From Halorubrum alkaliphilum (GTDB lineage: Archaea; Halobacteriota; Halobacteria; Halobacteriales; Haloferacaceae): a stretch of DNA of 54,693 nucleotides. The stretch lies in NCBI RefSeq assembly GCF_017873815.1, contig NZ_JAGGKQ010000019.1, positions 1 to 54,693 of the forward strand. Reading direction: 5' to 3'. The notes beneath the pieces are model-generated. The model was not told the origin of the DNA, did no database searches, and saw only the letters and a list, made by a program, of their open reading frames with translations. Below are positions 888-50,967 of the stretch, one piece after another (position 1 is the first letter of the stretch; every line of letters starts with the position of its first letter). Both the position numbers and the translations under genes were made by a program.

Positions 888-1099
888 ATATCCAACAGCC
901 GTCGGTCTTGCCAATAAATCTGTCGTTTTCCGATTTTGTACCGTCTACGGCTCGCGCCCTGTATTCAGCACGGTCGCAAAAATACAGGTCCGGATGAAAG
1001 TTCCAACAGAGCAGCCAGGTTCACAGTAGCAATGCCCCGACGATCTGTCTGCCGGTCCGTCATCTATTTGTGGCAGGTAACATGTGGAATTAGTATCAC

Positions 1100-4000
1100 A
1101 TGAGCCAAGCCACACTCGGCAGTGGCCCCTATCGGAACTCCAGTCTCTTCTCGGGATACTATCTCGACGAACGCGTCGCTGACCTGGACGACTGGGAATC
1201 TGATGACGAGGCAGAAGCGGCATTCGAAGCTCTCCGTGAACTCTGGGAACTGGAAGGAGAGTACGTCGCCTCGCACGGCGAAGACGAACTGATCGACCAG
1301 TGGATCGGTGAAGTGCTCGACATCCTCGGGTTCGACACGATCTCCGAAGGAACGCTTCCCGGAGGCGGCGGATACGTCGATCGGCTCCTCTACGAATCTC
1401 GCGAGGCCCGATACACGGCTGCTGACCGAAAACAGAACGACGACCGAGAGGGGATGTTCTCGGGGGCGTCCGCCCTGCTCGAAGCCAAACAGTGGGGTCA
1501 CGACTTCGAGGCGCGGTTCAGCGACGAACGACCTTATCGTGACGCCTCACACCAGGTAAAGTACTACCTCGAACGGACACCATCCGACCTCAAGTGGGGG
1601 ATTCTCACGGACGGACGGAAGTGGCGGCTCTACGGAACGAAGGATTACGAGACGCAGACGTACTACGAGGTCGACCTGCCGGAACTGCTCGAATCCGGCG
1701 ACCTCCAGCAGTTCAAATACTTCTACTGTTTCTTTCGACCCGAGGCGTTCACCGAGGTCGCCGGCACCTCGTTCCTCGAAACCGTGTGGACGGAGTCGGA
1801 GACCGCCGCGCAGGAGCTCGGCGAGGACCTCCAGGACAACGTCTTCACCGCGCTTCGGGTGCTCGGCAAGGGCTTCGTCGAGAGCAACGACTTGGCGATC
1901 GATCCGGAAGACGAGTCAGCGCGGGCCGAACTGAAAGAGCAGTCGCTCGTGCTGTTGTACCGGTTGATGTTCGTCCTCTACGCGGAGTCGCGCGGGCTGA
2001 TCGACCCGGAAGAGCCCAGCGCGAACGCGGAGTACCACGAGAACTTCAGCCTCGAAGAAGTTCGCAGCGACATCATCGAGCGGGTCGAAGGCGGCGACAT
2101 CGAATCGGGGGCGGCCTTCCGCGAGGAGTACAGCGAGTTCTCCACGACGATCTGGAACCGGCTCTCGCGGCTGTTCGAGCTGATCGACGACGGGGAGGAG
2201 GCGCTCGACATCCCGCCGTACAACGGGGGACTGTTCGACCACGACGACCACGAGTTCCTCGCCGAGAACGCGGTGTCGGATGCCGCGATCGCGGAGGTGA
2301 TCTTCCGGCTGTCGACGACAAAAAACGACGAGGGCGAACACGTGCCCGCGGACTACGCCGACCTCGACACGCGGCACCTCGGCTCCATTTATGAGGGGCT
2401 CTTGGAACACGAGTTTCGGATCGCGCCGGAGGCGGGTATGGCCGCGGTCGCGGCCGAGGGCGGGCAGGTGTGGAAGCCCGCGGACGAGGTGTCGGTCGCG
2501 GACGCGGTCGAGACGGTCGATGGTGGCGGGCTCTACGTCGTCAACGACGAGGGCGAGCGGAAGGCCACGGGGGCGTACTACACGCCGGACTACGTGGTCA
2601 CCTACATCGTCGAGGAGACCGTCGACCCGCTGATCGACGAGATCCACGCGGACCTCGAAGCGGACGGGCTCGCCCGGAGTGACACCGAGTACTTCCGGCG
2701 GTTCTACGACCGGGTGACAGATCTCACGGTGCTCGACCCCGCGATGGGTTCCGGGCACTTCCTCACGAAGGCCACCGGGTACCTCACCGAGCAGGTGATG
2801 AGCGTGGTTCGCGAGCAGGAGATCCAGTCGTACGACGAACAGGAGTTCCGTCGGGATATCTCGAAGGAGGTCATCTACGGCGTCGACATCAACGGGATGG
2901 CGGTCGAACTCGCGAAGCTCTCGATGTGGCTCGAAACGCTCGCGGCGGACCAGCCGCTCGCCTTCCTCGATCACCACTTAAAATCGGGCAACTCGCTTGT
3001 CGGCAGCGACATCACCGAAGTCCTCTCCGAGGACAACGGCGACGACGGCGGACAGTTGACGCTGACGCAGGCGTTCGCCAGAGTCCGGCAGGACACGCTC
3101 GAACACGTGATGGAGTTGATGGCGGATCTGCTCGCGTACGACAACGAGACGCTGGAAGACGTCAAATCGATGGAGGAGCTGTACGACGAGATCCGCGAGG
3201 ACCCCCTTTATAAGCGGCTGTTCGAACTGGCGAACGTCCACACCGCCGAGGAGTTCGGCGTCGACGTGCCCGAGGACGCCTACGAGCAGATGGCGAGCGC
3301 GATCGAGGACGAACGTGATTGGGAAGCGATCCGTGAGGAGCCGTGGTTTAAAAGTGCGCAGACGACGGCCGCCGAGCAGAACTTCTTCCACTGGGAACTG
3401 GAGTTTCCCGAGGTGTTCTTCGATTCGGAGGGTGAGAAGATGGGTGAGGCGGGGTTTGATATTGTTATTGGAAATCCGCCATACGTTACTCACGGTGGTA
3501 AACAAGACACTACTGATAAGTCAAAATTGTTATATTATGATGCTGTTTATGAATCTTCAGAGTATAAACCCAACACATTCGCACTATTTTACGAATTAAT
3601 ACAAGATGTTTGTAAATTGGGTGGCAGGATATCATATATTACGCCAAGGACCCTCCTCGATAATCAATATATGAAAAACATTCGGGAGATATTAGTTACC
3701 AATTCAGAGATACAATGTATTATTGAATCCGACTATTCCATATTTAAAAATGTTGAAACAGGTCGAAACGTCATTGGAATATTTAAAAAAGTGAATGATG
3801 TGAGATCCGACCACTCACTGAGAGTTGGCACGATTTCTGAGCCCATGGATCTAGCCAGTAGCGGTACCCAAAATATAAAACAAGATTATTTTTTGAATAC
3901 GCCCGAATACAAATTTACTGTCAAAAATAACTTAGAGCTTGAATTATATGATAAGTTGAAAACATGCGGAAAACCACTTGGTAACTTTGTAACAGTAAAT

Positions 4001-49099: not shown

Positions 49100-50161
49100 T
49101 CAGTCGGCCGCGACGCGGCGGGTGGTGTCGGCCATCGCCAGCACTTCGTCGAAGAAGCCGAGCGAGTCGTGCGGACCGGGGTTCGCCTCGGGATGGTACT
49201 GTCGGGTGATGACGTCGAGGTCCTCGCTGTCGAGCCCCTCGACGGTGTCGTCGTTGACGTTCACCTGCGTCACCTCCAGCGGGCCGGTGTCGTCGACAGT
49301 GTAGCCGTGGTTCTGGGTCGTCATCACAACCTTCTCGGTCCGGAGGTCCCGGACCGGCTGGTTGACGCCGCGGTGGCCGAACGCCATCTTCTCGGTCGAA
49401 CCGCCGAGCGCACTGGTGATGACCTGCTGGCCCAGACAGATGCCGGCCATTGGCGTCTCTCCCGCGAACGCGTCGACGACCTCCTGAGCCGCGACGAAGT
49501 TCTCCGGGTCGCCGGGGCCGTTCGAGACGAACAACACGTCGGGGTCGATCCCGGCCACCTGCTCGGGCGTCGCGTCGTACGGGAGGACGTGAACGTCCGC
49601 GCCCCGCTCGGTTAGCGAGGAAATGATCGATCCCTTCGCGCCGCAGTCGATCATCGCGACCGTCGCCTCCCCGCCGCCCTCGTGGACGGTCGGTTCCGTC
49701 ACCGAGACGCCAGCGCCGATGTCGGTGTGTGCGCTCATCGGCTCACACGCCTCCATCTCCGCGATCGCGTCCTCGGGCGTCGCGTCCGGCCCGGCGGCGA
49801 TCCCGCAGGCCATCGCGCCCTCCTCGCGGACGGTCGTGACGATCTCGCGGGTGTCGACGTGGTCAACCGCCGGAACGTCCTCGCTTTCGAGCCACTCCGC
49901 CACGTCGTCGGTCAGCTCGCGGGCGATCGCGGCGCGCGGCTGGACGTCGTCGGACTCGAATCGTTCCGCTCGGACGCCGTAGTTCCCGATCAAGGGGTAC
50001 GAGAACGTGAGCACTTGCTCGGCGTAGGAGGGGTCGGTGAGCGACTCCTCGTAGCCGGTGTACGCGGTCGTGAACACCAGTTCACCACGTGTACGCCCCG
50101 GCGCACGGGCGCGCGCTTCGAGCACGCGTCCGTCGGCCAGCGCGATGTAGGCGTCCGACAT
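49100..50161 (-). CDS. carA: Carbamoyl-phosphate synthase small subunit
   Basis: Glutaminase subunit of 353 residues; with CarB it makes carbamoyl phosphate for arginine and pyrimidine synthesis. The N-terminal domain has TAYTGYEESLTDPSYAEQVL and YPLIGNYG. The amidotransferase nucleophile cysteine is in GICLGQQVI, and the His-Glu pair in QYHPEANPGPHDS. carB is not in the window. Start MSDAYIALADG at 50161; a TATA-like ttattac about 27 bases upstream (50184-50192) suggests a leaderless transcript. A palindrome shared with the divergent Lrp gene lies at 50211-50227. Confidence 0.95.
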   Translation of the reverse strand: MSDAYIALADGRVLEARARAPGRTRGELVFTTAYTGYEESLTDPSYAEQVLTFSYPLIGNYGVRAERFESDDVQPRAAIARELTDDVAEWLESEDVPAVDHVDTREIVTTVREEGAMACGIAAGPDATPEDAIAEMEACEPMSAHTDIGAGVSVTEPTVHEGGGEATVAMIDCGAKGSIISSLTERGADVHVLPYDATPEQVAGIDPDVLFVSNGPGDPENFVAAQEVVDAFAGETPMAGICLGQQVITSALGGSTEKMAFGHRGVNQPVRDLRTEKVVMTTQNHGYTVDDTGPLEVTQVNVNDDTVEGLDSEDLDVITRQYHPEANPGPHDSLGFFDEVLAMADTTRRVAAD

Positions 50162-50210
50162 TACGAGATACGTATGGATGGACCGTAATAAGTGCGTCGT
50201 TCGTAGGTTC

Positions 50211-50227
50211 GTTACGAAATTCGTAAC
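50211..50227. promoter_or_regulatory. Palindrome upstream of carA
   Basis: GTTACGAAATTCGTAAC, a perfect inverted repeat with 7-bp arms around AAT. It lies about 20 bases beyond the carA TATA-like box. Its TTACGA half-sites are identical to those at 50508-50522 before the Lrp-type gene. Confidence 0.65.
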
Positions 50228-50353
50228 TCGCGTGGCGAGTGTGGCTCGATCACGGTCACCCACCGCTACACGTGGCCCACCGGGGTGGGGACCGAGCACG
50301 TGATCGGTCCTCTCCCCCGCCCGATCGTCGTCGCCCCCGGCCGAGTGATTCGA

Positions 50354-50404
50354 GCGGAGCGGATCCAGCGGAGCGGATCCAGCGGAGCGGATCCAGCGGA
50401 GCGG
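50354..50404. repeat. 14-bp tandem repeat in the carA-lrp spacer
   Basis: Three perfect copies of gcggatccagcgga (50359-50372, 50373-50386, 50387-50400) with partial copies on each side. It separates the carA and Lrp promoters; unrelated to the palindromes in sequence. Confidence 0.85.
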
Positions 50405-50456
50405 GCACACGCCGACTCGTGGCCGGGGCACGGACGAACGGCAAGCGTACCACTGT

Positions 50457-50471
50457 CTGCGAAGATCGCAG
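50457..50471. promoter_or_regulatory. Second palindrome in the carA-lrp spacer
   Basis: CTGCGA-AGA-TCGCAG, a perfect 6+3+6 inverted repeat with the same spacing as the other two and the shared CGA-N3-TCG centre. It lies beside a possible TATA-like gtattag (50471-50477) of the Lrp gene. Confidence 0.5.
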
Positions 50472-50507
50472 TATTAGACGGGGGTCGTTGTGGAGTTCGA
50501 AGTCGTG

Positions 50508-50522
50508 TTACGATCTTCGTAA
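50508..50522. promoter_or_regulatory. Palindrome before the Lrp-type gene
   Basis: TTACGA-TCT-TCGTAA, perfect 6+3+6 inverted repeat 32 bases before the ATG at 50554. It has the same arms as the site upstream of carA, so the same protein could control both divergent genes. Confidence 0.65.
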
Positions 50523-50553
50523 ACGGTAAGTCGCCGCGAGCGGATCTCGTGAT

Positions 50554-50967
50554 ATGGACGACCTCGACCGGCGGATCCTCTCGATCCTGCGACGGGACGC
50601 GCGAACCCCCTACACCGAGATCGCGGACCGCGTCGGTACCTCGGAGGGGACGGTTCGCAACCGCGTCGACCGGATGACCGAGGAGGGCGTCATCGAGCGG
50701 TTCACAGTAACTACCCGGACCGGGAACGTGAAGGCGATGATCGAGATCTCAGTGGAGATGAACGTCAACACCGCCGCCGTCGGCGAGCGAATGGTGGAGT
50801 GGGAGGAGGTCGATTTCGTCTGGCAGGTCTCCGGCGAGGACGACATCGTGCTGGTCGTCGACGCGGTCGACACCCGCGCGGTGAACGAACTCATCACACA
50901 GGCGCGGGAGCTCGACGAGGTCAAGTCCACGAAAACTCGACTGATCCTAGACGAGCGACTCGGCTGA
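50554..50967 (+). CDS. Lrp/AsnC family transcription regulator
   Basis: DNA-binding regulator of 137 residues. The helix-turn-helix is about 20-45 (TPYTEIADRVGTSEGTVRNRV), followed by the wing and a C-terminal RAM domain (about 65-135) that binds small ligands, usually amino acids, and forms dimers or octamers. Length is typical. It diverges from carA with three palindromes in between, so it is a strong candidate regulator of carA and of itself. The ligand is unknown. Confidence 0.93.
   Translation: MDDLDRRILSILRRDARTPYTEIADRVGTSEGTVRNRVDRMTEEGVIERFTVTTRTGNVKAMIEISVEMNVNTAAVGERMVEWEEVDFVWQVSGEDDIVLVVDAVDTRAVNELITQARELDEVKSTKTRLILDERLG

Follow-up and report, generated by a model that had tools for sequence, protein, structure and literature searches.

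A putative Lrp operator array at carA, carB and lrp of haloarchaea and its two copies between carA and lrp of Halorubrum alkaliphilum

In Halorubrum alkaliphilum, carA, which encodes the small subunit of carbamoyl-phosphate synthase, and the divergently oriented gene of an Lrp/AsnC family regulator (hereafter, lrp) flank a 392-bp intergenic region that contains conspicuous palindromes. The question is whether these palindromes are operators of the adjacent regulator and, if so, which genes they control and in what direction. Here, we analyze the window, that is, the entire stretch of 54,693 nucleotides of contig NZ_JAGGKQ010000019.1 that contains the locus (all coordinates refer to this stretch), along with the rest of the 3.1-Mb genome and the corresponding loci of other haloarchaea. 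There is a published precedent: in Halobacterium salinarum, the gene adjoining carA encodes the Lrp protein Trh3 (VNG1816G), for which Ashworth et al. 2014 (PMC4177876) reported binding by ChIP to the promoters of trh3, carA and carB, as well as motifs conserved in eighteen halobacteria.

The carA-lrp intergenic region

The carA gene (49103-50161, minus strand) was identified by a match to TIGR01368 above the cut-off and by the Pfam domains CPSase_sm_chain and GATase. Its start codon (CAT on the forward strand, 50159-50161) is supported by the MSDAY N-terminus conserved in relatives. The longest carA reading frame spans positions 49100-50431 of the minus strand and begins with a GTG far inside the intergenic region; conservation favors the ATG at 50161, and an automatic annotation might therefore wrongly extend carA over the operators. 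A TATA-like box, CTTATTAC (50185-50192, minus strand), precedes the start codon by about 25-30 bp.

The product of lrp (50554-50967, plus strand) is a 137-aa protein that matches PF13404, PF13412 and PF01037 above the curated cut-offs, that is, an N-terminal AsnC-type winged helix-turn-helix domain followed by a C-terminal RAM domain (AsnC_trans_reg), and shows near full-length matches to solved Lrp proteins, as expected of a member of the Lrp/AsnC (feast/famine) family. It scores under the curated cut-offs of the Lrp equivalogs LysM, LrpA, LrpA1_Halo and Lrp_Halo, the best being LysM (114 bits vs 180). Close relatives of this protein were detected in nearly all haloarchaea searched, and the closest named relatives come from Halorubrum. 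The assignment of the protein to the Trh3 type, as the probable counterpart of the H. salinarum regulator, rests on synteny with carA and on the shared motif. A candidate core promoter element of lrp, GGTAAGT (50525-50531, plus strand), located 29 bp before the start codon, belongs to a GGTAAG-type block that is conserved beside the strong palindrome described below.

The initial annotation described three matching palindromes of 6+3+6 geometry in this region, GTTACGAAATTCGTAAC (50211-50227), CTGCGAAGATCGCAG (50457-50471) and TTACGATCTTCGTAA (50508-50522), and all three are exactly where it placed them. Perfect palindromes of this geometry are frequent, with 36 in the window, which might suggest that those between carA and lrp arose by chance or represent RNA hairpins or terminators between the divergent genes. 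However, only these three have the CGA-N3-TCG core, and none of 4000 dinucleotide shuffles of the intergenic region contained two such sites (38 contained at least one). Furthermore, the palindromes are located between divergent genes, no terminator-like site was found in the region, and the sites are near-invariant throughout the order. We give this explanation next to no credence, and it is already contradicted by the conservation.

Genome-wide pattern searches with mismatches allowed showed how narrowly these sites are distributed. The exact sequence TTACGANNNTCGTAA occurs twice in the genome, at 50212 and 50508, both within this intergenic region. The perfect pattern TTRCGANNNTCGYAA, in which A/G and C/T are allowed at the third arm position, occurs in three places only: within the intergenic region, once toward carA and once toward lrp, and upstream of carB (G000:C1:6649). 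The search near carB proposed in the initial annotation thus led to the one remaining perfect site of the genome. Elsewhere, matches with one mismatch do not exceed chance (12 in all vs 20 in a reversed control) and, as they are no commoner than in this control, we claim no further targets.

The three palindromes hold up as sequences but not as independent sites: they are members of two copies of one array, one at carA and one at lrp. In the carA copy, the strong operator B (TTACGANNNTCGTAA, 50212-50226), which is the first of the three palindromes, is accompanied by a partial operator C 20 bp away (CTACGAACGACGCAC on the minus strand, 50192-50206) and by a weak operator A (TTACGAGATACGTAT, 50161-50175; 10/12 matches) that overlaps the carA start. 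The lrp copy consists of A' (50457-50471), the second palindrome, at -97 from the lrp start, where A is found in compact relatives; C' (50488-50502), of which one half-site, GTTCGAAG, is retained and whose TTCGAAG block is conserved in the split lrp copies; and B' (50508-50522), the third palindrome and an exact match, which is adjoined by the GGTAAGT element. The offsets, 31 and 20 bp, are identical in both copies (A, C and B start at 50161, 50192 and 50212, and A', C' and B' at 50457, 50488 and 50508). The initial annotation did not include site A, the sites C and C' at 20 bp from B and B', or the carB array. The spacer between the two copies contains a 14-bp perfect tandem repeat, AGCGGAGCGGATCC (3.7 copies, 50353-50404).

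Conservation of the array and its recurrence at carB

In all 39 further genomes compared (sampled at one or two per genus and almost all belonging to other families), lrp is adjacent to carA and divergent from it, as in the published Trh3 circuit; the two genes are 96-113 bp apart, and the strong site B lies 50-54 bp from the carA start; the weaker site A overlaps that start in most of them. Altogether, 126 distinct carA-lrp intergenic regions of haloarchaea, 96-114 bp long (hereafter, compact), each contain a single array common to both genes, in which site B matches the arms at 12/12 positions in 94 regions and at 11/12 in 31. Thus, where carA and this regulator are neighbors, the sites are conserved in 39/39 genomes and, in 125 of the 126 compact regions, at no fewer than 11 of the 12 arm positions; the absence of such conservation had been named in the initial annotation as an observation that would refute its reading. 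Near-invariant in the same set are the carA TATA box and a TTCGNAG block 6-12 bp from B; this block forms one half of site C, whose distance from B is exactly 20 bp. Along the carA array, the mean match is highest at offsets 0, 20 and 52, and a lower, overlapping maximum lies at 12. Most of the haloarchaeal genera sampled have A beside the carA start, 51-52 bp from B (20+31 bp), and its sequence in compact genomes is mostly CGA-N3-ACG. Accordingly, C is positioned about two helical turns from B, and A about five turns.

The same spacing recurs upstream of carB, which in H. alkaliphilum is located on another contig and is preceded by the sites TTGCGAAAATCGCAA, CTGCGAGATTCGTAC and TTACGATGAGCGTAC, 20 and 31 bp apart. 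Coincidence was considered as an explanation of the 51-bp spacing at carB and rejected, given that the 20+31 bp pattern recurs in several families: it was found in 22/22 genomes that have the anchor sequence (one genome lacks the anchor). No carB sites were seen in the most divergent genomes sampled (G042, G044, G035 and G043). Hence a conserved motif is common to the lrp, carA and carB promoters, as in the H. salinarum circuit. The position of the array relative to the TATA box, read from the sequences, is shifted by 13 bp between carA and carB, such that site A of carB overlaps the TATA box; carA and carB therefore share the spacing of the array but not the array-to-TATA distance, and the regulatory outcome may differ between the two genes.

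Separate array copies in Halorubrum and Haloparvum

The window and about ten relatives depart from the compact arrangement: either there are two copies of the array, each serving one gene, or lrp and carA are no longer linked and a site is found at both. In these split genomes, the intergenic region measures 265 to 794 bp where the genes remain linked. In Halorubrum rubrum, lrp and carA are on different contigs, each with a site, and in JWXQ-INN 858, the two genes are unlinked and the two sites, one at each gene, are 11.5 kb apart. In Haloparvum, the copies are 3 kb apart, again with a site at each gene and with an 827-aa reading frame between them.

The split lrp copies offer a view of the array outside the carA promoter. 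In 11 such copies, the operator positions are kept, with A', the C' half-site and B' at their ancestral distances from lrp (B' at -46), whereas no carA TATA box is left between C' and A'. The CGA-N3-TCG core is present in A' in 10 of the 11 split genomes, unlike in A, which is tied to the carA start codon and mostly lacks this core; in one split genome (L157), both A' and C' are poor. The retention of A' and C' despite the decay of the TATA box indicates that the operator function is separable from the core-promoter constraint, and these copies are the best evidence that A and C are probably sites of the regulator rather than products of core-promoter or coding constraint.

The linkage pattern also bears on which protein binds the sites. 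A different Lrp family paralog, or several, might bind the palindromes, the adjacent lrp being merely one participant, given that the genome encodes six Lrp family matches to this protein and that the motifs and targets of Trh3 and Trh4 of H. salinarum were reported to be very similar (PMC4236453). However, no perfect sites occur other than at lrp, carA and carB, and the sites stay with lrp even after it has moved away from carA, as autoregulation predicts. We therefore regard binding mainly by other paralogs as improbable and retain the adjacent Lrp as the preferred candidate.

The simplest explanation of the split genomes, judging by sequence comparison, would be that a formerly shared divergent control region was separated by duplication into two private ones. 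The clearest sequence support comes from Haloparvum, where 29 of 34 positions are identical between the copies over one stretch. In the spacers of the Halorubrum split genomes, remnants of the lrp promoter or of the carA coding sequence were not evident on inspection by eye, so that for Halorubrum the case for duplication rests on position and parsimony. In a tree of carA and lrp built from genomes in which the two genes are linked, the split genomes form one well-supported clade and one separate lineage, a placement compatible with either one early event and later collapse or two events. Tentatively, the shared array might have been duplicated early in the Halorubrum/Haloparvum lineage and later collapsed to a single array in most Halorubrum by recombination between the copies, a scenario that we entertain without favoring it. 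Two observations hint in this direction: split genomes occur on both sides of the deepest Halorubrum node of the tree, and the center of B in compact Halorubrum (TAT) is nearer to the lrp-side centers (TCT, TGT, TAT) than to the carA-side AAT of the Halorubrum split genomes. The Haloparvum B center is TAT on both sides and does not discriminate. If the early duplication is true, regulator and target could evolve separate control regions and even move apart.

The spacer content differs between split relatives. Halorubrum cibi (L074, about 1079-1537) and the matching stretch of H. aquaticum (L073) contain a reading frame of ~150 aa, MDHVEYVYTAGMTESEIEDRL..., between the operator copies, which shows that genes can land between the arrays. 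The 827-aa frame of Haloparvum sedimenti, between the separated lrp and carA arrays, occupies positions 1061-3544 of the locus (L252); its product presumably resembles penicillin-acylase-type hydrolases. Several split genomes (L036 of G018, L066 of H. rubrum G010, and L068 of G013) have a similar GC-rich spacer sequence, CAAAGCCCCAGCCGGCTCC..., which suggests a dispersed repeat element.

A model of regulation and its meaning

We consider it probable that the sites are operators of the adjacent Lrp, with carA, carB and lrp itself as targets, and we prefer cooperative repression as the mode of action. The 20-bp and 31-bp spacings fit the organization of archaeal Lrp sites, which form clusters two or three helical turns apart that are bound cooperatively, with bending or wrapping of the DNA (PMC2995911). 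Binding of Lrp dimers would begin at B and extend cooperatively to C and A along one face of the DNA. At carA, this spread would cover the start region and flank the TATA box; at carB, occupancy of site A would overlap the TATA box; and at lrp, bound B' would abut the core promoter. With A lying over the carA start and the carB TATA box, and B' next to the lrp core promoter, repression of all three genes would be the simplest outcome, perhaps tuned by an amino-acid effector (Arg, Gln or Lys was predicted for Trh3; PMC4236453). Such common repression would, we propose, allow the two unlinked subunits of carbamoyl-phosphate synthase to be co-expressed. The control of carA and the autoregulation of lrp envisaged in the initial annotation are thus supported by the conservation, by the carB site and by the ChIP data on Trh3; the unit, however, extends beyond carA and lrp to carB. 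Several observations weigh against the model. In the carA copy, A is imperfect and C incomplete, and of C' no more than one half is present. In H. salinarum, the correlation of trh3 with carA and carB in expression is only weak, and growth is unaffected by deletion of trh3 (PMC4177876, PMC4236453). Furthermore, the position of B upstream of the carA promoter also fits activation.

Activation of carA and carB from B is, indeed, a serious rival, even if we rate it as distinctly the less probable. The same regulator and sites would be involved, but B, just upstream of BRE and TATA, would help to recruit TBP, as in the case of Ptr2, and lrp would be repressed through B'. Both B and the C half-site lie upstream of the carA core promoter, and archaeal Lrp activators bind directly upstream of the BRE, with little freedom of position (PMC2995911). 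The weak correlation of trh3 with carA and carB in H. salinarum is a positive one (PMC4177876). The overlap of A with the carA start and with the carB TATA box, from which hindrance is expected, speaks against activation, as does the 13-bp TATA offset, which is at odds with a fixed activator-to-TATA distance.

Repression remains our preferred mode, and the system resembles several known ones. Like the Trh3 circuit (PMC4177876), it combines an Lrp/AsnC gene that diverges from carA, motifs conserved both at carB and in the promoter region common to the divergent genes, autoregulation (inferred there) and carA and carB genes that do not form one operon; it differs in that carB adjoins carA in H. 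salinarum and in that the window has, in place of one shared array, two private copies of it separated by 0.3 kb. Ss-LrpB and Ptr2 likewise target their own genes through clusters of palindromic sites two or three helical turns apart that are read as cooperative (PMC2995911), whereas in the present array the two intervals differ (20, then 31 bp) and one type of array serves separately placed genes. In Escherichia coli, both carbamoyl-phosphate synthase subunits are also under coordinated control, by ArgR and PurR (cited in PMC4177876), but there the genes form an operon (carAB) controlled by unrelated repressors, whereas here unlinked genes share an Lrp operator array.

As the Trh3 circuit was already published, the initial finding as written is mostly a rediscovery in another genus, and our result is a refinement rather than a new kind of system. 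What is new here, on the comparisons above, is the apparent three-position array geometry common to carA and carB, and the apparent duplication of the normally single shared array, one copy per gene; the main text of PMC4177876 says nothing of array spacing. The genomes with duplicated arrays amount to a natural promoter dissection, which reveals the bases that are maintained for the regulator where the carA promoter and start codon no longer exist, and the sign of regulation, cooperativity and effector become directly testable in Haloferax or Halorubrum. Carbamoyl-phosphate synthase feeds arginine and pyrimidine synthesis, and in a related haloarchaeon, the circuit controls its two halves, as described in PMC4177876. 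The present analysis extends that published one-species inference to a base-resolution operator model across haloarchaea, with one regulator, three genes and one array geometry.
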